Shown here piece after piece: positions 50,212 through 64,000 of a stretch of DNA of 64,000 nucleotides. Both the position numbers and the translations under genes were made by a program. The DNA comes from Aurantiochytrium sp. KH105 (taxonomy: Eukaryota; Sar; Bigyra; Thraustochytrida; Thraustochytriidae), in the NCBI GenBank assembly GCA_003116975.1, contig BGKB01000015.1, forward strand, positions 682,001 through 746,000. The letters are read 5' to 3'. Each line of letters begins with the position of its first letter. The first letter of the stretch is position 1. The notes beneath the pieces are model-generated. The model saw only the letters and a program-made list of their open reading frames with translations, searched no databases and was not told where the DNA came from.

Positions 50212-52044
50212 CTACGTCAAGTTGACAGCGGTGATGCGCCCGTCTACCACCGGTTCCACATAAAGCGCACCCGTTTTCTTCTTCTTGGCAAAGGTTTCAA
50301 GCTTGTGCACAGCTTTCATAAAAGTGTGACCATATCGACGCGACAAACAATTGAAGCCATTGAGCACGTCAAGTGCGGCAAAATGGTTGCGAACGAGCGT
50401 TGGCAGAACCGGACAGCACTCATCGTCGACAAGAACTTTGCAGTCTTGAAAGGCGCTGTAGCCATCCTTGCCATTGGCCAAGTACAGCTTGGTGCAAACA
50501 CGGTAGAGACGGTCTTTCTCGAGCGGCTCGCCACCCACTGAAACGTTAGAGAGACGGTGCATCGGCTCAAGAGCATAGTCTGCAGTGAAACGAACACCCG
50601 CAACGCAGGGAAAACGACCTTCGGTGGCTGGAACTTTGCTCACGCCATTCTCGAGAGCCTCCAGGAGACGCGATCCTGGGACTTCAAGAACAACGAGGCC
50701 GTCGACCATGGGCAAGATGCCGCGTAAATCCCCCAGCGTGATCGTGCCAGCCTCCACTATGGCATCAAGACGAAGTGTGCCGGCGTTCAAGATCGCGACC
50801 TCAGATCGCGTACCAACGCGCATAATGTCCGCCACAAAATTCGACAAATTCGTTTCGCGCGTGCGAATATGCGCAAAGATCCCATCGAGCGGGACCGCGC
50901 TCTCGCCTATGACCTGGTTCATGTCCTGAGCCACCTTTTCGTTGAACATTTCCACAAGCTCTTGCGTGCGCTCATGGGGAACAATCGTGTTGTTAATCTC
51001 GTGGCGGGTTCGCATCACGACCTCGACGCGAAAACGTTCTGGATTTGCTGCGTCTGACTCGAGTGCGAATCGCCCAGTCACGCGAACACGCATCTCCGTA
51101 AGCTCACGAAAGTCGGTACCGGATTTGATGACCCACACTTTGTGTGGCTCGACGCAGCGCACCTCGTAATCGTGGTCGTGCCCGCCAAGGACCAAGTCGA
51201 CCACGTCACCTGCCTCGTGCGCAAGTCGCTCATCATTGGGCATTCGCATGTGCGTGAGAGCAATGACGAGATGAACCCGATGCTGGCTTCGCAGGCGCGG
51301 ACCAAGCCGCCTGGCGCACTCGACGAAGTCCTCGTACTCAATGTCCTCTTCCTCGATCGTAGAGAGTGTGGCCATCCACGCGTACTCGACAAGGCCAATG
51401 ATTCCGATGCGCAGGCCATCAGCTCGCTCGATCACAAGAAATTCCTCGGCGCCGGCCAGCAAGTTGCCGCCATCGGGGCGGTATCGCACATTGCTTGTGA
51501 TCCAGGGAAACTCGCAGTTGGCCATGAGCCGCGTGAGCTGATCAATGCCAAAGTCAAAGTCGTGATTTCCGAAGCAGGCCGCCGAGACGCACGCGTTGTT
51601 CAAGATCGGCACCATGTGCGCGCCGCGCGTCGTGGTGCTCAGCATCGAAGGATTGAGGCAGTCCCCGCTAAAGAGCACGAGCGGTGCCTCGCCGTCATCT
51701 TCCTTCTCGCGTAGCTCGAGCACGCGTGCTACGAAGCGCGCCGCGCCCCCGACGGGCTCCTGCTCTCGCGCTGCGATGTTGTACACATCATTAAAGTGCA
51801 AGATGTGTACTTCTTTGGTCTCTTCTGCCTCGTGGCCCTTTGCGCGCAGAAGCGACGCCCTCTCGCGCTCGCGCTCGCCCTCGCGCTCCCGGAGACCCTG
51901 CAAGTGCTTGAGTCCTTCGCGCAGCGCGAGTTCGAGGTCCGCCGCGTTCTCGGCCGCCGCGACGCCGGCCACCACGCGCAGCTGCAGGTCCCGCAGCTGC
52001 GCCGCGGCTTCGGCGCCGACGTCCTCGCCCCCGCGCGAGCCCAT
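50212..52044 (-). CDS. 5'-nucleotidase/UshA-type metallophosphatase
   Basis: A 610-residue protein of the calcineurin-like phosphoesterase superfamily with the UshA/CD73 two-domain plan. The N-terminal 75 residues are Ala/Glu/Arg-rich and helical. The metallophosphatase domain follows, with metal-binding HFNDVYN (D86), FSGD (127-128), GNHDFDFG (159-166), ALTHMR and GGHDHDYE. The C-terminal substrate domain has TNLSNFVADIMR and ILNAGTLRLD, with a conserved tail YRVCTKLYLANGKDGY. Family members hydrolyse nucleotides or related phosphomonoesters. No signal peptide, anchor or Cys-rich secreted features are seen, so it is probably cytosolic, unlike CD73. The start at 52042-52044 is the first ATG after the leader; longer upstream frames have no suitable start. 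It is divergent from the methyltransferase gene, with 507 bp between starts. Confidence 0.88.
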   Translation of the reverse strand: MGSRGGEDVGAEAAAQLRDLQLRVVAGVAAAENAADLELALREGLKHLQGLREREGERERERASLLRAKGHEAEETKEVHILHFNDVYNIAAREQEPVGGAARFVARVLELREKEDDGEAPLVLFSGDCLNPSMLSTTTRGAHMVPILNNACVSAACFGNHDFDFGIDQLTRLMANCEFPWITSNVRYRPDGGNLLAGAEEFLVIERADGLRIGIIGLVEYAWMATLSTIEEEDIEYEDFVECARRLGPRLRSQHRVHLVIALTHMRMPNDERLAHEAGDVVDLVLGGHDHDYEVRCVEPHKVWVIKSGTDFRELTEMRVRVTGRFALESDAANPERFRVEVVMRTRHEINNTIVPHERTQELVEMFNEKVAQDMNQVIGESAVPLDGIFAHIRTRETNLSNFVADIMRVGTRSEVAILNAGTLRLDAIVEAGTITLGDLRGILPMVDGLVVLEVPGSRLLEALENGVSKVPATEGRFPCVAGVRFTADYALEPMHRLSNVSVGGEPLEKDRLYRVCTKLYLANGKDGYSAFQDCKVLVDDECCPVLPTLVRNHFAALDVLNGFNCLSRRYGHTFMKAVHKLETFAKKKKTGALYVEPVVDGRITAVNLT

Positions 52045-52551
52045 GGCCGTCCGCGCGCGCCAGGCCAGGCCTAGCCAAGCCAAGCCAAGCCAAGCCAAGC
52101 CACGTCCCGCCCGAGATTGCCAAGACGATCTGCCGCGCGAGGTGTATCCAGACTCTGCTATGCACGGGCTCCGCGCGCTGCGGGGCGAGTCAGGTTCTTG
52201 CCCCGGCGAGGCCAGAAAGGCCGAGTCGATGGTGACCCGGGTGACGCGGCGGCAGACGCAGCAAACAAACGCCGCTCGCAGCAGACGCCTGCCAGGCAGA
52301 CCGCAGCCGGCACGGGCCGTGGCGCGGGGGCCGCTCGTCGAGCTGAGAGCGGCTTGCGCTTCGACGCCGCCTGCGCTGGGCCAGGAGGGCTGGACGAGAG
52401 CGGCTCGGACCGACCTACGCCAACCAACCGAATTTATAACAAAGTTGAACAGACGCTCGAAGAAAACCACCGACCTTGGTTGCTGGGCGCGGCGGCGGCT
52501 TGCTGGGCGCAGCGCGGACGCGCCGACCAGCCGGCATTCCCTCTCAGCGCG
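52045..52551. promoter_or_regulatory. Bidirectional promoter region, nucleotidase/methyltransferase pair
   Basis: The 507 bp between the two divergent start codons must hold both promoters and leaders. It is GC-rich and contains a CCAAG pentamer run at 52070-52101 on the nucleotidase side. An AT-richer AATTTATAACAAAGTTG stretch lies at 52431-52447, about 105 bp before the methyltransferase start. No other gene is seen. Confidence 0.55.
52070..52101. repeat. CCAAG pentanucleotide repeat
   Basis: Five to six CCAAG units run in tandem about 30 bp upstream of the nucleotidase start codon. Confidence 0.88.
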
Positions 52552-53715
52552 ATGGCCGTGCCGAGGCTCGAGGCGTACAGGTCGCAGGATGGAAACCTCG
52601 CTGCGCCGCAAGCGTCTGCAGGGGTGCACCAACTCCTGGACCTAAGGCTTGAGGGAGGCCTCGAGGACCTCGTCGTCGAGGTCAAGACGCTCGCGGCCGC
52701 AGCAGAAAAACACAGGGATGAGCCGGAAGAACAGCAAAAACACATTGAGGCGCTACTCGAAGCGCTGACCAAGATTGTGGACGCATCCGCGGACGAGGAC
52801 TGCGCCGAAGAAATCGGCTTTCTTGGTGGACACGCCTTGGCTACACGCCTGCTGGAGCGATGCGCCATGTGGGATGACTGTCGTGCCGTTGATCTCGTTG
52901 CCGACTGGACGTCGGTGACGCTGACGACGCTGGGAAAGCTGATGCGAGAAGCCCCTGTCGGAGCTCTGGACGACCGTCCGCGGCCATTCGTAGTGCACCT
53001 TGCCAACGACACCGAAGTCATTCTCCGCGAGGTTCGCGATGATCACAGTGAGGCGGCACACGGCGACAAGGCCAATGTTCGCGTGGGCTACAAGCTCTGG
53101 GGCGGCGCCGTGGTGCTGGCTACAGCATTACTGGAAATGGGCGCCAAGGGATCTCTCGAGGGAAAGCGCGTATTGGAGCTAGGCGCCGGACTGGGACTCT
53201 GTGGTCTCGCCGCGGGACGTTCCGATTTTGGAGCTGCCGCAGTGGTATTGACAGACTTCCACCCTCGCATTGTCAGCAATCTCGCATACAACATTGCCGT
53301 CAATGATCTTGAGACGCCGCGATGCTCGGCGCAGGTGCTCGACTGGGAAGACTTGGACGCTGCTTTTGGGGACGAAGATGACGAAAAGTTTGACCTTATC
53401 ATTGGCTCCGACATTGTGTGCCAGGCATTGGACTGCGAGCTTGTGGGGCGTGTGCTCACGCGTCTTTTGCGTCCGAACGGAGCTGGGGTTGCGCTCGTGA
53501 CGCTTGGCTCGGCAGATTCTCGCTTTGGGGTTGAGGCGTTTGCGCCTGCCATGAAAGCCGCAGGTCTTGAGTGTCGCGAGACCATTTTGCCGGTCCCCGA
53601 TGTTTGTCTACCGGCTTCCGAGGGATCTCAAGCTCGAGGAGAGGTTTTTCTCGGCACTGCGCGAGCCTATGTTTCGTTCGAAATCACCACAGCGACCCGT
53701 TCGGAGGCCAGTTAG
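52552..53715 (+). CDS. METTL21/FAM86-type (family 16) protein methyltransferase
   Basis: A 387-residue class I SAM-dependent methyltransferase. The catalytic domain (about 165-375) has motif I VLELGAGLGLCGLAAG, motif II-like VVLTDFHP, then DWEDLDAAF and the post-II FDLIIGSDIVCQA. GYKLWGGAVVLATALLE before motif I is the family-16 substrate-side signature (usually G...W.GA..L...L). These enzymes mostly methylate lysines on translation factors and chaperones. The N-terminal 150 residues are helical and acidic, with KHRDEPEEQQKHIEALLEAL, similar in style to FAM86/EEF2KMT, but the substrate cannot be called. The ATG at 52552 (GCGATGG) is chosen because the 145 codons upstream are Arg/Ala-rich leader. 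The D/E-x-x-Y/F post-II motif found in some members is replaced by SDIVCQA. Confidence 0.87.
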   Translation: MAVPRLEAYRSQDGNLAAPQASAGVHQLLDLRLEGGLEDLVVEVKTLAAAAEKHRDEPEEQQKHIEALLEALTKIVDASADEDCAEEIGFLGGHALATRLLERCAMWDDCRAVDLVADWTSVTLTTLGKLMREAPVGALDDRPRPFVVHLANDTEVILREVRDDHSEAAHGDKANVRVGYKLWGGAVVLATALLEMGAKGSLEGKRVLELGAGLGLCGLAAGRSDFGAAAVVLTDFHPRIVSNLAYNIAVNDLETPRCSAQVLDWEDLDAAFGDEDDEKFDLIIGSDIVCQALDCELVGRVLTRLLRPNGAGVALVTLGSADSRFGVEAFAPAMKAAGLECRETILPVPDVCLPASEGSQARGEVFLGTARAYVSFEITTATRSEAS

Positions 53716-54127: not shown

Positions 54128-56089
54128 CTACTTTGGAGCTTCGCTCTTTAAAGAGGAGGTCAGCTCGGGCTCTGGCCATTTAAAACCCTTGCCCTGCCGG
54201 AGCTTTGCCTGACGCTGCGCATGTTGCGACTGCGGCGGTTTGTTTGGCCGCAGTGGCCGATTTCGAATGATGCAGTTGAGAATCTGTCTGGGCTCAAGTA
54301 GAACAGAACGCTCGAAATGAGACCGGAGACGGTGCACATTGAGACAGTATGAGCAGGCTTTGCGGTCGTGCGTGGCATCGTTTTGCCTCGGACAGCGCTC
54401 CACAATAACCACCGTCATTCGCGATTTGTCAGGGAAATCGTCGAGCAGGTCGCGCGTCTGCGCTTGCGGGACGAGATCGTGCAGTGTCTCTGCTTGCTGC
54501 GTGAGTTTTGAGTGCAGATAACACATGTCACGCTGCGTGACGGACGAGTATTTAGAGAGCCACCTTGCGAGAAGAGGTCGATGCACGTCGTCGGCCGTGA
54601 AGATGTAGTCAAATTGGCCGAGCATGGTCTTATCTGGAATCTCGCCAGCGCTCAGCTTTCCTGTGAGCACCGAGGAAGTTGGCTTGATGCGATACGGTTC
54701 CTCATCAACCCATTTTCCCGAGGCGTTGCAGGCCTCAATCCACGCGGGCGTCACGAGCTCGCTGCCGACGACTTGGCCAAAAATGAACTTTGGAGAGTTT
54801 TTCACTTCGGTCTCGCCTGCTTTGTTTTGGCCACGCGGCTTCGCAATTACATGGGTAACATGCGACTTGTACTCGAATTTGCGCAAGTACTCGCCACCGA
54901 GCCGCTCCACCCAAACGATGCAACGGTCCAGGTCCTCGCCTTCGAGTCCAGTGACCAAAATATGCGGCTTGGTTGTCATCTTGGAGGGTTCGGGCGCGGG
55001 GTCTTGTGTCGCTTGCGCTTGCGACGAAGGATTCTCCCCATCCTGTGCCCCTGACGAGACAGCTTTTTCATTCCCTGTGGGGGACTTTGGTGCAGCAGCT
55101 TTGATTTTCGCCTCTGCCGACGAAACAGTGCCCAGTGGGTTTTCCTCTGGCAACGTCGGCAAGACTACGCCTTCTCTTTCAGCTAACGACGCTGGTAACT
55201 CAGCCGAATCTTTATCCTCTTGCAGCGCTGGCGACTCAGCCGGCTCCTTTTCCGCTTGGGACGGTGCCACAAGCTTGGTCTTGTCATTTTCAGTCGAGTC
55301 TTCCTTCTCTCTAGCCAGACCGAGAAAGCGATCTTGGCGAGCCTGAAACTTGCGACGCGACGCTTCCAAGGCGGCCGAAGGATTATCTTCGTTCATCGAA
55401 GCATGTGTGTCGTCGTCAGGCGCTGGATCATCTGATTTGGATTTGGTCGCTGCGTTTGCTGCTTCTTTCGATGGTGTTTCTGTCGTTGTTGTGGTTACTG
55501 TAGCTGCTGCTGCGATTGAAGTTGAAAAAGGGGCAGCAGTTCCTCCCAAACGAGCTTGGCGTTCCTTGAAGCGCTGTTGCGCGGCTGCAAGAGCCTCCTC
55601 GGCGGCGGTAGGTTTCAAAGTCTCCCTCGTGGGGGCCGGCCTAGAGTCTTGGTCGATTTGCATAGGATCATTTTCATCGTTGGGCTCGTTGTCAATCTCT
55701 GTGGCGGGGTTATCGACCTCATTGCGCGAGCGTTTCACGGGACTCTGGGTCGCGTCAGGATCATGAGATGCTAATGCGGACTTGCGGGCTCGCTCCTCGC
55801 GTCGCGTCTCGAGCCGCGTTAGTGCAGCGCGCAGTTTGCTGACGCTGCCTACGATGTTGCAAAAGGTCGGGTTGCGCGCAAGGTCTCGCGGGCGCACGGG
55901 CAATCCGCACGTGGGACACTTGCTTTGGTCAAAGAGTGCGTCATCGATGCATGTCTTGCAAAAGTGATGCTCGCAGTCTGTCGAGTACGGGTTGTCGAGG
56001 AGCTTATTGCACAGTCCGCACTCGAGCAGCTTCTCCATGGCGCGCAAGTTCTCCAGCTGCATAGCCGCCATCCGAAAGTTGGCCGTCAT
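54128..56089 (-). CDS. BARD1/BRCA1-like RING-BRCT protein
   Basis: A 653-residue protein with a RING finger and paired BRCT domains, the plan of BRCA1/BARD1 ubiquitin ligases in homologous recombination. RING zinc ligands: C24, C27, C39, H41, C44, C47, C58, C61 (MEKLLECGLC, CEHHFCKTC, CPTCGLP). The flanking helices and the later NPTFCNIVGSVSKLRAAL look closer to BARD1 than BRCA1. The linker (about 90-370) is acidic, Pro/Ser-rich and has two related 20-residue segments (ALAAAQQRFKERQARLGG and ALEASRRKFQARQDRFLG). BRCT 1 is about 376-465 (ILVTGLEGEDLDRCI, GSELVTPAWIEACNASGKWV), and BRCT 2 about 490-580. A short Cys pair (KACSYC) and a basic tail follow. No ankyrin repeats, unlike animal BARD1. 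It should act in the nucleus; the partner is unknown. Confidence 0.85.
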   Translation of the reverse strand: MTANFRMAAMQLENLRAMEKLLECGLCNKLLDNPYSTDCEHHFCKTCIDDALFDQSKCPTCGLPVRPRDLARNPTFCNIVGSVSKLRAALTRLETRREERARKSALASHDPDATQSPVKRSRNEVDNPATEIDNEPNDENDPMQIDQDSRPAPTRETLKPTAAEEALAAAQQRFKERQARLGGTAAPFSTSIAAAATVTTTTTETPSKEAANAATKSKSDDPAPDDDTHASMNEDNPSAALEASRRKFQARQDRFLGLAREKEDSTENDKTKLVAPSQAEKEPAESPALQEDKDSAELPASLAEREGVVLPTLPEENPLGTVSSAEAKIKAAAPKSPTGNEKAVSSGAQDGENPSSQAQATQDPAPEPSKMTTKPHILVTGLEGEDLDRCIVWVERLGGEYLRKFEYKSHVTHVIAKPRGQNKAGETEVKNSPKFIFGQVVGSELVTPAWIEACNASGKWVDEEPYRIKPTSSVLTGKLSAGEIPDKTMLGQFDYIFTADDVHRPLLARWLSKYSSVTQRDMCYLHSKLTQQAETLHDLVPQAQTRDLLDDFPDKSRMTVVIVERCPRQNDATHDRKACSYCLNVHRLRSHFERSVLLEPRQILNCIIRNRPLRPNKPPQSQHAQRQAKLRQGKGFKWPEPELTSSLKSEAPK

Positions 56090-57670
56090 CGCGGCTCGCG
56101 GTTAGGCTGGTTTCGTCGTGCGGCTCTTCTTCTTCTTCTTATCCAGACCGGCAAGAAGCTTTACTTTGCTTTGCTTTGCTGCGCTGCGCTGCACTGCCCT
56201 GCACTGCACTGCGCTACACCGCGCTACGAGGCGTTCCGTCTCTGCCCTGCGCGTCCCCGCGACGTCGCGCAGGCAGGCGATCGGGCCCTTTCCTTCCTCG
56301 GCGCGTTGCGCTTCTACTTTCCGGAGTCACCAAAACAAACAAACGAAAAAAAACACTAAAAAAAACGCAACCCATTCTGTGCGCAACCCATTCTGCGCGC
56401 AACCCATTCTGTGCGCAATCCATTCTGTGTTCATCTTCCTACCTTTTTTTGTTTGTTCCGGGAAGCCGGGCTGAGCTCAGCTGGGCCGACAGTGACCCGG
56501 AGTCCCTGTGCCGCGGACTTGTCGGAGTTGATCGAGGTTGTCGCGTTCGGGTCCATGCCGCATCCGCAGACGAAAGCACACGCGACGCGCGGGTCGTCGA
56601 CTCGTCGCCTTCGGTCGCTGCCCGCGGCCTCGTCGGCCTGGCCGCCTTGGCCCTTGCCTCGGAGCTCTGATCTTCTGCTGCTGCTGCTGCAGCTGCTGCA
56701 GCTGCTGCCGCTGGGCGCCGCGAGCTGCACTTCAACCTGCGAACGCGCCCCGCCGAGCCGGGTCCCCGCGAGGCGAACTGCGAGCTCTTGTTCGCTCTGC
56801 ACTGCCGGGCTGCAGCAGTAGGTCGCGGGCGATCCTCATCTTCATCTTGGTTGAGAGCGCGCCCGACACGCAAGACAAGATAAGATAGAAAAGATACCAT
56901 CTGCACTGGTGCCGCTGCTGCGCCCCGGCCTCTGTGCCGCCCGAGCTCGCTCCCGACCGCACGAACGAGGTGCGCCTCGCCTCCGTCGACCTCCCCGCCG
57001 CGGTTCAGAGCCGCGCGCGCCGCCGTCTGCGTGCCGCCGCGCGCGCGGTCCACTTCCTCGCCCTCCCTCGCGGCGTTGTTCATCCCATCCTCTCGGCCCG
57101 CGTCGCCATCTCCCGCGCCTGCCGCTCTGTCGTCCGCGCTCCGTCGTCTTTGCGCCCCGCCGCCGCGCCGCGCGCGCTCCGCGGCGCGCCGTCGCGCCTG
57201 CCGGGCCCGCCTCCTGCCCTGCCCCGCCGCCGCGCCCCGCCACGCCGCGGCGCGCCTGCGAGGCCTGCGAGGCCACGCCGCGGCGCCCTGCGAGGCCGCG
57301 CCGACGCACGCCGCGCGGCCGCGGAGAAGACGCCGCAGCCGGCGCCGGCGGCGGGGCGGGCGGCGTGAGGCGGGCGGCGTGAGGCGGCCGAGGGAAGACC
57401 GCGGCCGTCGGGAGGACTCGAAGGTACCCGCGAGCGGCACGGCGCAGCGGCCCGTGGACGTGGACGTGTGCCGCGCGTGCGGTATCTTGTCTATCTACAG
57501 CTAGCTGCGGATTCGCGTGGGCAGCAGAACCAAATCTGCGAGCGCGGGAGATCGATCGAGCCTGATTCTGCGAGGCGGACGCACCCTCCGAGGCAGAGCG
57601 ACGCGACGCGACGCGAGCGAGCGCGCAGGGCGGCGGAGACGGCGGCGGGAAGAGCGCGGGAGAGGAGAGG
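56090..57670. other. Divergent promoter region between BARD1-like and aldo-keto reductase genes
   Basis: It begins with a pentamer tract (CTTTG/CTGCG/CTGCA, 56160-56215) close to the BARD1-like start, then a four-copy 16-bp repeat (56365-56428), CTGCTGCAG repeats (56676-56712), and a very GC-rich zone (56930-57470) before the reductase gene. Long frames there are Arg/Ala-rich and compositional. Confidence 0.55.
56365..56428. repeat. Four-copy 16-bp tandem repeat
   Basis: Four units of CGCAACCCATTCTGTG run in tandem; unit 3 is exact, and unit 2 and unit 4 each carry one change. They lie 276-339 bp upstream of the BARD1-like start codon. Confidence 0.92.
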
Positions 57671-58762
57671 ATGGCGGGCGAGGCGCCGAAGATGTACTAC
57701 AGGATGCTGGGCAACACGGGCCTGGCGGTGTCCGTGCTGAGCTACGGGTTTTGGGCCACCTTTGGCGTCAAGGATACGCTGCGCGAGCAGGACGGCATCA
57801 ACATGGCCAAGGACTGCCTGCGGCTCGCGCGCAAGGCCGGCGTGAACTGCTTCGACAACGCCGAGGTGTACGGAAACCCCTCGGGCGAGGCGGAGCGCAT
57901 CATGGGCGAGGCGCTCGCGCAGCTCCGCCAGGAGGACGCGCAGCTCTGGCGCCGGTCCGCGCTCGTCATCACCACCAAGCTCTTTTGGTGCGCGCAGGGC
58001 GACGAAGGCACCGTCAACGAAAAGGGCCTCTCGCGCAAGCACATCAACGAGGGCATCGACGCCTCACTCAAGCGTCTGCAGCTCGACTACGTTGACCTCG
58101 TCTTTTGCCATCGCCCCGACGCCCACACGCCCACGGAGACGGTCGTGCAGGCCATGACGGACCTCGTGCGCTCCGGCAAGGCCACCGCCTGGGGTACCAG
58201 TGAGTGGAGCGCCCAGCAGATCACCGAGGCCTACTTTATCGCGCAGCGCGGCGGCATGATCGCCCCGGCCTTTGAGCAGCCCCAGTACAACATGATGCAC
58301 CGCGAGCGCTTCGAGAAGGAGTACTTTCCACTCTACCGCCAGCCTTACAACATTGGCACCACCATTTGGAGCCCGCTTGCCTCGGGCCTCCTCACCGGCA
58401 AGTACAAGGACGGGATCCCTGAAGATTCGCGCCTCGCCCAAAAGGGCTACGAGTGGCTGGTCAAGAAGCTCGACGCCTGGAAGGAGGACGGCAGCCTCGA
58501 CAAGGTGCAAAAGCTCGCCGACTTTGCAGAAAAGGAGTTTCAGTGCTCTACCTCGCAACTCGCGCTGGCGTGGTGCCTCAAGAACAAGAACGTCACCACG
58601 GTCCTTCTCGGTGCGACCAAAACGGAGCAGCTCGAGGAGAACCTTGGTGCGCTCCCGGTTCTGCTCAAGATGACGGACGACCACATGGATAAGATTGACG
58701 AAATTCTAGGCAACAAGCCCGAGCCCTGGTTGAACCAGCAGCGTCCCATCGACCTCATCTGA
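57671..58762 (+). CDS. Aldo-keto reductase (Kv-beta/YghZ-like, AKR6/AKR14 type)
   Basis: A 363-residue NADPH-dependent carbonyl reductase on a TIM barrel. The catalytic tetrad is D62, Y67 (FDNAEVYGNPSGEAE), K103 (ITTKLFW) and H147 (VFCHRPD). Further family landmarks are the stretch VRSGKATAWGTSEWSAQQI, QPQYNMMHRERFE and the cofactor region WSPLASGLLTGKY. Near the end is LLGATKTEQLEENLGAL. The sequence most resembles potassium-channel beta subunits and bacterial YghZ; whether it binds a channel is unknown. The ATG at 57671 (AGGATGG) follows an extreme GC-rich leader. No targeting signal is seen; the enzyme is probably cytosolic. Confidence 0.95.
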   Translation: MAGEAPKMYYRMLGNTGLAVSVLSYGFWATFGVKDTLREQDGINMAKDCLRLARKAGVNCFDNAEVYGNPSGEAERIMGEALAQLRQEDAQLWRRSALVITTKLFWCAQGDEGTVNEKGLSRKHINEGIDASLKRLQLDYVDLVFCHRPDAHTPTETVVQAMTDLVRSGKATAWGTSEWSAQQITEAYFIAQRGGMIAPAFEQPQYNMMHRERFEKEYFPLYRQPYNIGTTIWSPLASGLLTGKYKDGIPEDSRLAQKGYEWLVKKLDAWKEDGSLDKVQKLADFAEKEFQCSTSQLALAWCLKNKNVTTVLLGATKTEQLEENLGALPVLLKMTDDHMDKIDEILGNKPEPWLNQQRPIDLI

Positions 58763-59030: not shown

Positions 59031-61095
59031 TTAGCTGGCATCAATGCGATGAAAAAGCTCCTTGTAGAATCCTTCAGCCAAGTACAAACGACGCTGAAAA
59101 GGCATCGACCCGCTGTGGTCGTAAAGGTGCTTGGCCGAATCGGGAACCGTGTAAATACAAGTGGAGAAGTTTGCAAGCCCCACGCGACTCGAGTCGCTCT
59201 CATGCACGAGCAAAATAGGCTTCTTGGCTTGCAGGGTCGTGTTCAGCTCCATGAAAGCTGCTTCGGAACTAACGACAGACTTTGCCAGAGAAAGAAGGTA
59301 ACATTTTGACGCACGGAATTCAGCGCGCATCTCTTTCGTTGAGAGGTTACCTTCCGTTCGCTGGTCATCTCAAACCTTGGGTCCGCAATTCATGAACTTT
59401 TCAGCCACGAAATTGCATGCATCGCCGGCCTCAGCCTGCTGATGGCTCAGAAAAAGGTGATTCATCAAACCTGGCGCCAGAGGCACAGCGATCCTCTCCT
59501 CCGCCACGATATCTCCCTCGTCTTCTCTCAGGGAGGGAGCCATCTTCGAAAACGGTACAAAGTCGGCGACCTTTGCGAACCTTGTGCCTACAGACATGAC
59601 GGCGTCTACCCCCGATGTGCGCGCCTGAAGCACATCATCGTACGCATCCAGAACAGACGCCTGAAGAAGGAGCTCCCATGGCAAGCCTTGAAAGACCGCG
59701 TCGCGAGCGCCCTGGAATGTGCTCACCAGTGTCTTGAGCGCGTTGGCTAGCTTTTCGGAGTCACGCTCCAAGCGGAGCCAGATCTTATTCTGTGTCTGCT
59801 CAAGCGCAAACACGGAAAGACCAAAGTGAATGACAGCTTGATTCCATGCTAGATGGGACGCGCGCGCCAATGCTCCCATCTCTCCGCTGTACTGGGCGCA
59901 GAGCGAGAGCAGACGCGCAAAGACACCGTCTGAGAGAAAGAACTCGGAAAAATTTAATATGCACGTCAGACTAATGTCCATGCCCGCAATCTCGGCTTTT
60001 AAGCTCTCACTGATTGCGTTCTTGAGCAAATTGCTCACTAGCTAAGAGCAGCTCGCCTTGATTACCCTTCGAGAGGGATATCTCGGGGAAATTCCAGCTT
60101 GATACCAGCGTCGTATCGCGCAAAAAGTCCAGCAGATAGTCGACCTCTTCATTGGCCCACAGAAACGTCAGCAGTCGGAGTGTAGCAATACCGCGTCTTT
60201 GCAGCACCGTAAAGCCCTTGCTCAGAGCACCATCCTGAAGATGACGGTCGTATCGCATCTGCTTGACATGGATCTCGTCCGCAAGCACGCGTCAAAGCTT
60301 GTCCAGGAGCCAACGCGGGTTCAGAACGACACTTTCGTGCAAGGTGTCTGTTGCGCGGAGATGAACGAGCATGTCGAGCTCATGAAAAAAGCTCAAGAGC
60401 TCGTCGGTCTGATCACCGGCGTGATACTTGGTTGCGAGCTCTTCCACTGTCTTAAAAGGTACGTGATCGCAGTCAAGCTTGAGCAAGTCGTCCGACACCT
60501 TGAGCCAGCGCAGCGAGATCTTTCGTGAGACAGACTCGAGCGACGACGCACTTGCTTCAACCGCAGCTCTCAACTTTGAGGCATGGCCCGGTTCGCGGCT
60601 CATGTTATCGATAGGTAAGAAGCTCAGGCTTGCTGCCGAGTATGGGATGTGTTTTCATTTTCGTCAACGTACAACATCCCACGAATGATATTTTCGACAT
60701 TACCAAGGTTGATCAGAGCGCCTCCTCTGCCGCTGCAGCAGTCGCGGTGGCGCCGAGCACTTCCTCCTCGACGGGCCGCGCAGCCTCTGTGCTGTCCAGC
60801 ATGCGCCCGTCTCCGCGTCACAAACACGCACACTCTCAAAGTGCGAGCCACGAATGGAGACCGCCTGCACCTAGATCGAGTGGCCTTGCAAGACGTGCAG
60901 CGGGCGTCTCCGCGCGCCCCAGACCTTGATCGTCTTGTCGCCTGCCTGGTGGCTCATGATGCGGTCTCCCTCGATCGGGACAGAGAGCACCTTGTTAGTG
61001 TGGCCCTTTTTACACGCGGCCCAGCTCGAAGAAGGACACGTTACGGGCGAAGGGTCGCGAGGTTTTCGTGCTCACTGGGAGTGACGAGAAGTAAG
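59031..61095 (-). pseudogene. Degraded tandem copy of the WD40-Roc-COR-TIR gene, GTPase domain deleted
   Basis: Reading on the minus strand from about 61095, WD40-like pieces come first (GHTNKVLSVPIEGDRIM, IKVWGARR, LHVLQGHSI then a stop, VRVCDAETG). The sequence matches the intact neighbour up to AAAAEEAL (about 60716). It then jumps, after about 80 unmatched bases, to SFLPIDNMS (about 60632), so the whole Roc GTPase domain (roughly 257 residues in the neighbour) is gone. COR-like parts follow (RKISLRWLKVSDDLLKLDC; WLLDKL then TGA), a frameshift lies near 60040, and the TIR segment (NHLFLSHQQAEAGDACNFV) has TGA in place of the conserved Trp at about 59370. The frame closes at 59031 with the same RIDAS end. 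The 3' flank also resembles the intact gene. It lies about 100 bp downstream of that gene's stop codon. Confidence 0.87.
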
Positions 61096-61197: not shown

Positions 61198-64000
61198 TTA
61201 GCTGGCATCAATGCGACTGATGAGCTCATTGTAAAAACTTTCGGTCAGATACAAGCGACGCTGAAAAGGCATAGACTCGCTGAGACCGAAAATGTGACTA
61301 GCCGACGCGGGGACTGTGTCAATGTACGTCTGAAACGCAGCGAACCCCACGCGATTGGGATCGCTCTCATGCACAAGCAAAATGGGCTTTTCGGCTCGTA
61401 AGGCCGTGTCAAGCTCCATGCAGACCATCTCGGATTGGAAGACAGTCTTGCTCAAAAAGAGCAGGTAGCATTTTGACGCCTGGATTCCAGCTCGCATCTT
61501 CTCCGGAGAGAGGTTGCCCTCTGTTCGCTGGTCGACCCAAACCTTGAGTCCGCGATTGACGAGCTTCTCGGCCATGAGATTGCATGCGTCACCGGCCTCG
61601 AGCTGCTTGTGGCTCAAGAAGACGTGATACTCCAAGCCGGGAGCCAACGGCAGATCTGCCTCTTCGACCTCGCCCGTGTCTCTTTCATCCTCCGTCAACG
61701 AGCCATCTTTGAAAAACGGCTCGAAGTCTGCTACCTTTACGATTTTCGTGCCCACTGACTTGACAGATTGTGTTCCAGGGGACGAGAACGCCCGCGCAGC
61801 TTCGTCGTATGCGACCAGGATGGACGCATTTCTCGGCGACTGAAGAAGAAGCTCCCATGGCAAATCTTGAAAGACTGCGTCACGCGCGCTTCGAAACATG
61901 CTCACCAGCGTCTTGAGCGTGTTTGCTGGCTTTTCGGAGTCACGTTCTACGCGAATCCAAATCTTGTCCTGAGTCTGCTCAAGCGCAAACACGGAGAGAC
62001 CGAAGTGAACAATGGCCTGGCTTCCTGCCAGCTGAGGTGCACGCGAGATGGCCCCAAAGCTCCCACTGTACTGAGCGCAAAGCGAAAGCAGGCGCGCAAA
62101 GACGCCATCCGGAAGGAAAAACTTGGTAAAGTCCAGAACACATGTCAGACCGGGGTCCATGTCCGCAATCTCTGCGACAAGATCAGCGTCGGTCGAGTTC
62201 TTGAGCAGACTGCTCACCAGATAGAGAGGCTCGCCTTGGCGGCCTGATGTGAAAGCATCTTCCGGGAAATCCCAGTTTGACAGTAGCATGGCGCCGCGCA
62301 TGAACTCCACGAGGTACTCGACTTCTTCATCGTCCCAGAGGAACCCGAGCAAGGCGCGTGAACCAATGCCCTTGTGACGCAGGAGCGCAAAGTCGTCCTC
62401 AAGTTCGAGGTCGGAAAGCCGCTCGTCGTAGTAAATGTCTTGGACGTGGATCTCGTCCGCAATGACTCGGGCCAGCTTGTCCAAAAGCCACTGTGGGTTT
62501 AGCACGACCTTGTCGTGCAGGGTATCGGTGGCACGCAGATGCACAAGCATACCAAGCTCGTGGAAAAACTTGAGCAGGTCGTCTGTCTGGTCGCCAGCAT
62601 GGTACTTGGTCGCATATTCCTGCACTTTGGCAAAGGGAACGTGGTCGCAGTTCAATTTCATGAGATCATCCACGACCTTGAGCCAGCGCAGCGAGATCTT
62701 TTGCGACACAGCCTCGAGCTTGGATGCCGCTTTTTCAACAGCAGCGCGCAGATCGGCAGCGCGGTTTGCTGCGGGACTCATGTTGTCAATAGGGAAAAAA
62801 CTCAGGCGAGTCCCACTGTTTTTTACCAGTTTGATTCCGCGCAGCTTACGAAACAGGGACTGAAGAATTCGCTCGACGGCTTGCAGGCTGCTGGAAGCTT
62901 GATCGTAATGCGTTGCGACCAAAAGAACAGGGGCTTTGGGCGCGTGCAGCTTGATCGAGTTGAGCCAAAAGCGCAGATACCCCAAAGCTTTGTTTTGCTC
63001 GGTGAGGAGTTCCTGCATGTCAAAGACGAGCATGAAGACGCCGCCCTCGCGCGTGAGGAAAATGTGGTGCAGCGCGTAGAAGACGTCCTGACCTGCATAG
63101 TCCCAGATCGTAAACTTGACCTTCTGGCCCGACTGCGTCTGGCCGGCCATGTCCTCGATCTCCGCATATTCGAACCGCTGCGCCATCTCGGCCTCGGGCA
63201 CCAGCTCCACCTGCACCTCTGCGACGAAGGGCCGCGCCGCGGCAGAAGAACGGCGACGCACGGCATTTGCAAGACCGCGAGACACGCGCCTGGGCAGCGA
63301 TTGTCGCTTCTTGCTCGCCGCTTGCTCCTGCGCGGCCATGCGCAGCGCCGCCACGCGATACGCCTGGCGTTCAAACCCGCTGTCGAATTCCTCTTCCCGC
63401 CACGACTCTGCATCGGTGCGCTTGAGCTCGACGCACACCGTCGAGAGGTGCTCCGCCACGGGCTTCATGCCCAGCAGCGAGCGCACCGTGGACGTCTTGC
63501 CGGCGGCGCCCTGGCCGACGACCATGAGCTTGCAGCGGCCCAGCTCCGCGGGGTCCCCGTTCGCCAGCGCCGCCTTGAGCGCCTCCTCCGCCGCCGCAGT
63601 CGTCGCGGGGCCGCCGAGCACGTCCTCGATGGGCCGCACGGCCTCCGTGCCGTCCAGCACGCGCGTCGAGGCGCCCGTCTCCGCGTCCCAGATGCGCACG
63701 CTCTCGTCCGAAGATCCGCTCACGATCTCCGACCCCAAGAGAGAGACCGACCACACCGGGAACGAGTGTCCTTGCAAGACGTCCAGCGCGTCTCCGCTGC
63801 GCGCGTCCCAGAGTCTGACCGTGTTGTCCCAGGACCCGCTCACGATGCGGTCTCCCTCGAGCGCGACAGAGTTCACCCAGAGAATGTGTCCTTCGAGGAC
63901 GCGGACGAGCTGGAAGGAAGGCACGGCGTAGACCCTCACCTTGTTGTCGCGGGACCCGCTCACCATGCGCTGCGCGTCGATCGCGACCGCGTTGACCTCG
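61198..64000 (-). CDS. WD40-Roc-COR-TIR protein, STAND/ROCO-like (5' partial)
   Basis: The frame runs off the right edge inside a WD40 repeat, so the N-terminus is missing; residues are counted from the Met at 63966. Three WD40 repeats are visible (about 1-105: SGSRDNKVRVY, SGSWDNTVRLWDARSG, SGSSDESVRIWDAETG). A Roc-type G domain follows: P-loop GQGAAGKT (151-158), G3 WDYAGQ (288-293), G4 THYD (352-355). The COR region (about 405-720) includes WLKVVDDLMKL and a C-terminal helical part. A TIR domain closes the protein (about 779-895): YHVFLSHKQ, VWVDQRTEGNLSPEKM and VCMELDTALRAEKPILLV, with E851 at the position of the TIR NADase catalytic Glu. Roc-COR proteins work as GTP-regulated dimers; TIR can mediate signalling or cleave NAD. 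A cell-death or immune-type sensor role is inferred. No kinase domain is present. Confidence 0.9.
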   Translation of the reverse strand, partial: EVNAVAIDAQRMVSGSRDNKVRVYAVPSFQLVRVLEGHILWVNSVALEGDRIVSGSWDNTVRLWDARSGDALDVLQGHSFPVWSVSLLGSEIVSGSSDESVRIWDAETGASTRVLDGTEAVRPIEDVLGGPATTAAAEEALKAALANGDPAELGRCKLMVVGQGAAGKTSTVRSLLGMKPVAEHLSTVCVELKRTDAESWREEEFDSGFERQAYRVAALRMAAQEQAASKKRQSLPRRVSRGLANAVRRRSSAAARPFVAEVQVELVPEAEMAQRFEYAEIEDMAGQTQSGQKVKFTIWDYAGQDVFYALHHIFLTREGGVFMLVFDMQELLTEQNKALGYLRFWLNSIKLHAPKAPVLLVATHYDQASSSLQAVERILQSLFRKLRGIKLVKNSGTRLSFFPIDNMSPAANRAADLRAAVEKAASKLEAVSQKISLRWLKVVDDLMKLNCDHVPFAKVQEYATKYHAGDQTDDLLKFFHELGMLVHLRATDTLHDKVVLNPQWLLDKLARVIADEIHVQDIYYDERLSDLELEDDFALLRHKGIGSRALLGFLWDDEEVEYLVEFMRGAMLLSNWDFPEDAFTSGRQGEPLYLVSSLLKNSTDADLVAEIADMDPGLTCVLDFTKFFLPDGVFARLLSLCAQYSGSFGAISRAPQLAGSQAIVHFGLSVFALEQTQDKIWIRVERDSEKPANTLKTLVSMFRSARDAVFQDLPWELLLQSPRNASILVAYDEAARAFSSPGTQSVKSVGTKIVKVADFEPFFKDGSLTEDERDTGEVEEADLPLAPGLEYHVFLSHKQLEAGDACNLMAEKLVNRGLKVWVDQRTEGNLSPEKMRAGIQASKCYLLFLSKTVFQSEMVCMELDTALRAEKPILLVHESDPNRVGFAAFQTYIDTVPASASHIFGLSESMPFQRRLYLTESFYNELISRIDAS

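Follow-up and report, generated by a model that had tools for sequence, protein, structure and literature searches.

What is a ROCO GTPase doing in one chain with a TIR domain, and is such a protein a solitary oddity or part of a larger system? The question is raised by a gene at the right end of the window analyzed here, a stretch of 64,000 nucleotides (C15:682001-746000) from an assembly of 76.0 Mb. The gene, on the minus strand, contributes the C-terminal 933 of its 1103 codons and the stop codon to the window (61198..63999). We find that this WD40-Roc-COR-TIR gene is real: it is one open frame, is under selection, and belongs to a large family of hypervariable, receptor-like genes. Probably, these genes make up an extensive receptor repertoire, encoded in the germline and dispersed over the genome, that combines a variable WD40 sensor, a ROCO switch, and a TIR effector, and in which about 38 codons of the sensor set specificity. 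An earlier note on this DNA had recognized the domain combination, and missed the size of the family, the codon-precise hypervariability, and the sensor cassette.

Architecture of the gene

The minus-strand frame at 61198-63999 contains 933 open codons and runs beyond the right end of the window. Extension along the contig, as the earlier note had advised, recovered the N terminus: an ATG at C15:746509, outside the window but within the locus that we fetched (L009, C15:740001-750000), encodes amino acid (aa) 1 and completes a single uninterrupted frame of 1103 codons. Searches with profile hidden Markov models, also suggested in that note, bear out its reading of four domains in one chain. Each scored above its Pfam cut-off in the window part (WD40, 62.8 bits against a cut-off of 27; Roc, 66.5 against 27; COR-A, 46.0 against 35.3; TIR_2, 44.6 against 28) and in the full protein (101.7, 66.1, 45.6, and 49.7 bits, respectively). 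The protein is thus both a ROCO GTPase, with Roc followed by COR, and a TIR protein. This one-frame chain is not a product of chance, because 29 of the 35 family loci fetched hold the whole chain in a single frame.

The part of the gene inside the window starts within a seven-bladed WD40 propeller, of which it contains most of blade 5 and blades 6 and 7 (aa 171-285; 63655..63999), as assigned by Pfam, AlphaFold2, and Foldseek. The Roc GTPase region (aa 319-540; 62890..63555) is defined by Pfam family PF08477, matched at aa 448-536 of the full protein, and by conserved motifs, all of which the earlier note had listed: the P-loop GQGAAGKT (63493-63516), WDYAGQ (63088-63105), and THYD (62902-62913). 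It is followed by the COR region (aa 600-955; 61645..62712; COR-A match at aa 608-689) and the TIR domain (aa 956-1103; 61201..61644; TIR_2 match at aa 963-1064), the latter identified from Pfam and solved relatives. All of these features are on the minus strand, as is the catalytic-type Glu1032 of the TIR domain (61414..61416), which has number 862 when counted along the window frame; the earlier note had miscounted it as E851. A decayed copy, consisting of four broken pieces that span COR to TIR and are 49-72.5% identical to the window gene, adjoins it at 59031..60654 (minus), and its pieces are also found on the other haplotype (L030); the locus is duplicated and partly decayed, as had been claimed.

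Size of the family and pairing of haplotypes

The genome contains 124 COR-A matches (all 124 candidates were scored, and 8 fall under the curated cut-off). A TIR_2 match follows at least 91 of them on the same strand at a distance of 0.3-2.2 kb, with 150 of 258 TIR_2 candidates scored. A protein search of the genome with the sensor, in which 136 of 604 candidates were scored, yielded at least 98 matches to the WD40 cassette at E values of at most 1e-30. Sixty of the 98 listed cassette matches are followed by COR-A within 2.5 kb (58 distinct COR matches), and 38 are not. These counts take in both haplotypes where both were assembled, and are lower bounds where only part of the candidates was scored.

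The 38 COR-less sensor matches lie in open frames of 326-737 codons, except for one of 1550, and include C26:115737, C235:2125, C259:56293, C259:58122, C157:54611, C67:116216, and 32 others. Possible roles are as WD40 proteins in their own right, as decoys, or as donors of sequence to the sensors. The two that we read lie beside L026 and L028, where an additional sensor match (60-61% identity) precedes the family gene at about 959-1936 in L026 and about 897-2024 in L028 (plus strand). More distant matches (47-58% identity) occur in threes at C15:584082-587308 with C6:241253-244463 and at C92:44065-48798 with C101:47944-52650, each group of three seemingly being present on both haplotypes. Among the 150 scored TIR_2 matches, 59 are unpaired with COR. 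Many of these are in open frames of more than 1000 codons; therefore, other TIR architectures exist. For example, TIR and WD40 matches on C24 (10787-11167 and 13190-13567) apparently share a frame of 1550 codons.

We read 35 family loci (L009-L043), a non-random choice among the loci with COR, Roc, or TIR matches. The frame is intact in 29, and five are broken or have partly lost the sensor (L012, L017, L020, L023, and L030); L032 was fetched in part and stands outside these counts. Eight further sensor regions (L044-L051) raised the set of sensors to 37. Contig C6 runs antiparallel to C15 across three family loci (the window gene and L030, L015 and L017, and L016 and L027), with flanks that are mostly 90-100% identical. 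Similarity in at least one flank also joins L014 with L013, L026 with L028, and L022 with L012, the last being less certainly allelic because similarity is lost upstream of the gene. L019 and L023 form another pair, in which most of the L023 sensor is gone. L039 and L040 occupy matching places on C36 and C17, and L011/L037, L021/L035, and L050/L051 are presumed to be alleles from the similarity of the genes. For comparison, presumed haplotypes of four other loci that match the Roc profile, probably genes for small GTPases, have 88-96% identity over about 3.3 kb with gaps counted, which indicates high heterozygosity in the organism. On the other haplotype, the copy of the window gene (L030, C6:79000-88500) contains an in-frame TAG near aa 478, inside the Roc region, so one haplotype may be without a working copy. 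This stop codon and the diversity of the family agree with the earlier description of the locus as fast-evolving.

Hypervariability of the sensor

Over aa 1-285, we marked 38 positions in the loop before strand a, the start of strand a, and the b-c loop of each blade; the motif of blade 2 is unclear, and its marked positions are a matter of judgment. Across the 29 intact copies, mean column entropy is 2.41 bits at the marked positions compared to 0.34 bits at the other 247, and marked positions fill all of the 20 and 35 of the 40 most variable columns. With 37 sensors, the corresponding values are 2.40 and 0.35 bits, 20 of 20, and 33 of 40. We also adapted a rule that is blind to variability from PMC3419727, whose available part designates the residues through which the top face of a WD40 propeller generally binds as R1-2, R1, and D-1. 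Applied to the consensus of the 37 sensors, this rule selects 17 positions, with 2.93 bits compared to 0.47 bits elsewhere, and these include 14 of the 20 most variable columns.

In the window, the hypervariable top-face codons, identified by alignment of the copies, are aa 171, 173, 187, and 189 of blade 5 (63943..63999), aa 210, 211, 213, 227, and 229 of blade 6 (63823..63882), and aa 250, 251, 253, 267, and 269 of blade 7 (63703..63762), all on the minus strand. An AlphaFold2 model of blades 5-7 has a predicted local distance difference test score (pLDDT) of 89.2 and matches WD40 propellers, including Fbw7 and WDR5, in Foldseek. In this model, all 14 marked positions are located in the loop before strand a, the first two residues of strand a, or the b-c loop.

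The same codons distinguish alleles. The window gene departs from its own allele at 33 of 38 marked codons, with two or three changed bases in 24 of these, compared to 14 of 244 codons in the framework (pN 0.017 and pS 0.037, the proportions of nonsynonymous and synonymous differences). Six allele pairs have 5 of 38, 9 of 38, 7 of 36, 6 of 36, 10 of 36, and 4 of 35 marked residues in common, which is about what randomly chosen copies share (mean over all pairs, 0.24), together with 89-96% of framework residues. We judged an assembly artifact to be an unlikely source of these differences, which are in frame and limited to the same codons in many contigs.

Selection and an exchangeable cassette

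In comparisons of all pairs of the 29 copies, pN and pS were 0.522 and 0.301 at marked codons and 0.061 and 0.106 in the WD40 framework. The values were 0.105 and 0.293 in Roc, 0.138 and 0.521 in one part of COR and 0.214 and 0.628 in the other, and 0.142 and 0.599 in TIR. The ratio of nonsynonymous to synonymous rates (dN/dS) in Roc, COR, and TIR is 0.13-0.30; these domains are under purifying selection. Thus, the effector half is kept in its protein sequence and the predicted binding face is not.

The sensor and the rest of the gene also differ in silent divergence. Among ten copies, pS falls from 0.114 in codons 1-30 to 0.00-0.05 in codons 31-360, then rises to 0.17-0.36 in codons 361-510 and to 0.40-0.68 in the remainder of the gene, starting at codon 511. 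Because pS is low in the sensor and high downstream, the sensor behaves as an exchangeable cassette of about 1 kb. For example, the window gene (L009) and L015, surely different loci because they are on the same contig, differ at 1.1% of framework bases and 42.1% of marked-codon bases, and share 21% of marked codons; L015 and L031 differ at 0.9% of framework bases and share 29% of marked codons. Of the 40 pairs with the most similar frameworks (0.7-1.6% different), 39 have 13-47% of their marked codons in common, the exception being the presumed alleles L011 and L037 (86%). In a core group of 16 copies, 44.0% of bases differ at marked codons compared to 1.9% in the framework. The sensor is therefore homogenized between loci, and the binding codons are not. 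In L011/L037, pS is 0.62 in codons 600-760, flanked by stretches of low divergence, which suggests local exchange within the COR region too.

Conservation of the switch and the effector

The P-loop Lys, WDYAGQ, and THYD are each present in all 29 intact copies, with Ser replacing one P-loop Gly in one copy, and Glu1032 is invariant. A family profile of the TIR domain matches three solved structures: 7uwg, "Molecular chaperone Tir" (E value 5.3e-5), 8g83, the NAD(+) hydrolase AbTIR (1.2e-4; NAD, nicotinamide adenine dinucleotide), and 7uxr (0.0037). The first two align over the same stretch and were also matched by a single sequence (6.3e-4 and 1.1e-3). Glu1032 is aligned with a Glu of AbTIR that we take to be the catalytic one. 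From these sequence comparisons, GTP gating and NAD cleavage by the WD40-Roc-COR-TIR protein are plausible.

Proposed function and rival explanations

We propose that the N-terminal seven-bladed propeller uses its top face to bind a particular partner, which may be a pathogen product, a modified host protein, or a non-self variant. Binding would be relayed to the Roc-COR GTPase and would alter its nucleotide or oligomeric state. The C-terminal TIR domains would then be gathered and would act, most likely by cleaving NAD or by making a nucleotide signal, and their action may end in defense or cell death. Specificity would reside in the approximately 38 sensor codons. New sensors may arise as the 1-kb cassette recombines between loci and haplotypes, with diversifying or balancing selection keeping variants of the binding codons.

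Several observations weigh against this proposal. The copies analyzed are a non-random sample, and the 38 positions were chosen after the alignment had been viewed, for which the variability-blind rule is a partial remedy. The family lacks the Trp that lies close to the aligned Glu in AbTIR, and a single-sequence AlphaFold2 model of the TIR domain in the window has a pLDDT of only 40.9. Some pairs have also remained stable. L039 and L040 are identical at 35 of 35 marked codons, L021/L035 and L011/L037 share 32 and 33 of 36, respectively, and L050 and L051 are identical. These four close pairs indicate that not every locus diversifies.

The missing Trp would also fit a TIR domain that serves only as a scaffold, recruiting further TIR proteins without any cleavage of its own. 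Potential partners are numerous in the genome, given the 59 TIR matches without a paired COR. Against a scaffold stand the Glu, invariant in 29 of 29 copies, and the name of 8g83, NAD(+) hydrolase AbTIR, among the three solved matches to the family profile. We regard a scaffold as quite possible, although it is not what we would expect. A different alternative concerns the partner rather than the output: the receptors may serve to distinguish individuals of one species as self or non-self, as fungal HET-D and HET-E do, and not to recognize pathogens. In six allelic pairs, most of the sensor codons differ, as balancing selection would give, and the closest working analogue, the HNWD receptors, is an allorecognition system according to the part of PMC12222747 available. 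However, dozens of loci and the COR-less cassettes resemble a broad repertoire more than a few incompatibility loci, and four close pairs differ little or not at all, making a role in allorecognition rather unlikely. That the family is decaying or is a selfish repeat without function is hardly credible, despite the five broken or reduced loci among the 35 fetched and the decayed copy beside the window gene: 29 of the 35 are intact, dN/dS is low across Roc, COR, and TIR, and the changes cluster on one predicted binding face.

How the sensor codons came to differ is a separate question. In an outcrossing population of very high diversity, the observed pattern could arise by ordinary recombination and gene conversion among codons that are old and under selection. 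The distribution of sharing weighs against this origin, being all-or-none: among the 666 pairs of the 37 sensors, none is 0.5-0.8 identical over the marked positions. The same gap favors a dedicated mutagenic or templated process that would rewrite the sensor codons, tied to the copying of the cassette between loci. Such targeted diversification would also fit the contrast between framework and marked codons in L009 and L015 and the nearly absent linkage between marked codons. For marked codons at most three codons apart, joint sharing is 1.21 times the expected value when three close pairs are each reduced to one member; complete linkage would make it 2.36 times. Beyond 20 codons, the ratio is about 1.0. 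Yet the short-range value exceeds the maximum of all 200 shuffles (1.13), and framework pS is higher beside marked codons (0.054 at a distance of one codon, 0.047 at two, 0.026 at three to four, 0.013 at five to eight, and 0.021 at nine or more), resembling a footprint of recombination, although imprecise rewriting could give the same gradient. The stable close pairs argue against a constantly acting mutator. Adenine-specific mutagenesis of the retroelement type, which the A-rich first and second bases of marked codons had brought to mind, was rejected on the column spectra: A is rare in many hypervariable columns (base 1 of aa 187 is A in 1 of 27), and codons mostly end in mixtures of C and G; no template repeat or reverse transcriptase was searched for. 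Taken together, targeted rewriting seems improbable to us. We give similarly little credence to its most specific form, in which a nuclear eukaryotic system would replace all of the approximately 38 top-face codons together during cassette copying, leaving the framework DNA nearly unchanged, with the ROCO-less cassettes as a possible store of donors. If true, this would be programmed germline diversification of an innate receptor. Apart from the four close pairs, the 666 pairs include no near-identical sensors. Their lack counts against wholesale copying of sensors between paralogs, though not decisively, because donors may be in unread copies or in other individuals.

Other features of the window and the assembly

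To the left of the decayed copy, the window contains frames for a 5'-nucleotidase (50215-52641, minus), a lysine methyltransferase-like protein (52075-53712, plus), and an aldo/keto reductase (57566-58759, plus), all ordinary neighbors, and a RING-finger frame (54131-56101, minus) with a BARD1-type RING match under the cut-off. Elsewhere in the assembly, two neighboring PP-binding (acyl carrier) matches lie about 102 codons apart at C290:41877-42380, and one more is at the very end of a contig (C61:104-304). These are possibly parts of a synthase with tandem acyl carrier domains that was cut by the assembly. The neighboring matches are a possible hint at the organism and are compatible with several lineages.

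Comparison with known systems

Plant TIR-NLR proteins likewise combine a nucleoside triphosphate (NTP) switch, a TIR effector, and a variable sensor, with NB-ARC and leucine-rich repeats (LRR) where the window family has Roc-COR and WD40, and the two are not homologous as a whole. No NACHT or NB-ARC domain was found in the full protein at an E value of 1e-9, or among the 25 best Pfam families for the window part (down to 0.007). In prokaryotic contigs, a bacterial WD40-Roc-COR-TIR protein was not found, which is weak evidence given the few patterns scanned (six, then two): the scan with the window protein confirmed none, and the scan with the alignment found four loci that match in the WD40 part only, at 28-33% identity.

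The junction of ROCO and TIR is less rare than the earlier note had held. Its description of the WD40-ROCO-TIR chain stands, but ROCO-TIR proteins were already described in the accessible sections of reports on Chondrus crispus, where the order is TPR-ROCO-TIR (TPR, tetratricopeptide repeat; PMC11378527), and on Aplysia (PMC9334734). These proteins resemble the window family in joining Roc-COR to TIR and differ from it in that those sections describe neither a WD40 sensor nor hypervariability. The nearest published ROCO repertoire that we found, from the part of PMC11378527 available, is that of the LRR-ROCO candidate immune receptors of brown algae, an expanded ROCO family with a diversifying sensor; the same part gives at most four ROCO copies each for several other SAR species. 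The algal genes have an LRR sensor, 7-55 exons, exon shuffling, and no TIR, whereas the window gene has a WD40 sensor in a single open frame and codon-precise variation. We found no report of a hypervariable WD40-ROCO-TIR family in the open-licence literature, judged mostly from search listings, and no such protein in the accessible portions of PMC8195603 or PMC7159879. If our interpretation is true, the family is an extensive repertoire of hypervariable receptors that use a ROCO switch and a TIR effector, in a host that is probably a protist, and it links LRRK2-type GTPases to TIR immunity.

The closest likeness in design is to the HNWD receptors HET-D, HET-E, and HET-R of Podospora anserina. 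As far as the available excerpts of PMC12222747 and PMC4986451 describe them, these receptors are also single chains that consist of a WD40 sensor, an NTP switch, and an effector related to TIR, and have a conserved framework in which a few codons per WD40 repeat diversify at the predicted binding surface. The same is seen in the window family, whose diversifying codons fall on the predicted binding face of WD40 as mapped by the R1-2, R1, and D-1 positions in the excerpt of PMC3419727. The differences are equally clear. The switch is Roc-COR instead of NACHT, and the order is reversed, with the sensor first and TIR last. The propeller has seven distinct blades instead of near-identical repeats that vary in number, so that the window protein has neither the HET-NACHT-WD40 order nor the near-identical internal repeats, and the family comprises dozens of loci instead of ten members. 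By this analogy, the window family appears to work like the HNWD receptors but is not one of them. It makes testable how a hyperdiverse receptor can hold its framework uniform while single codons saturate, and, if our interpretation is true, it would represent an independent arrival at the fungal HNWD solution, in which the top face of an otherwise fixed propeller varies.

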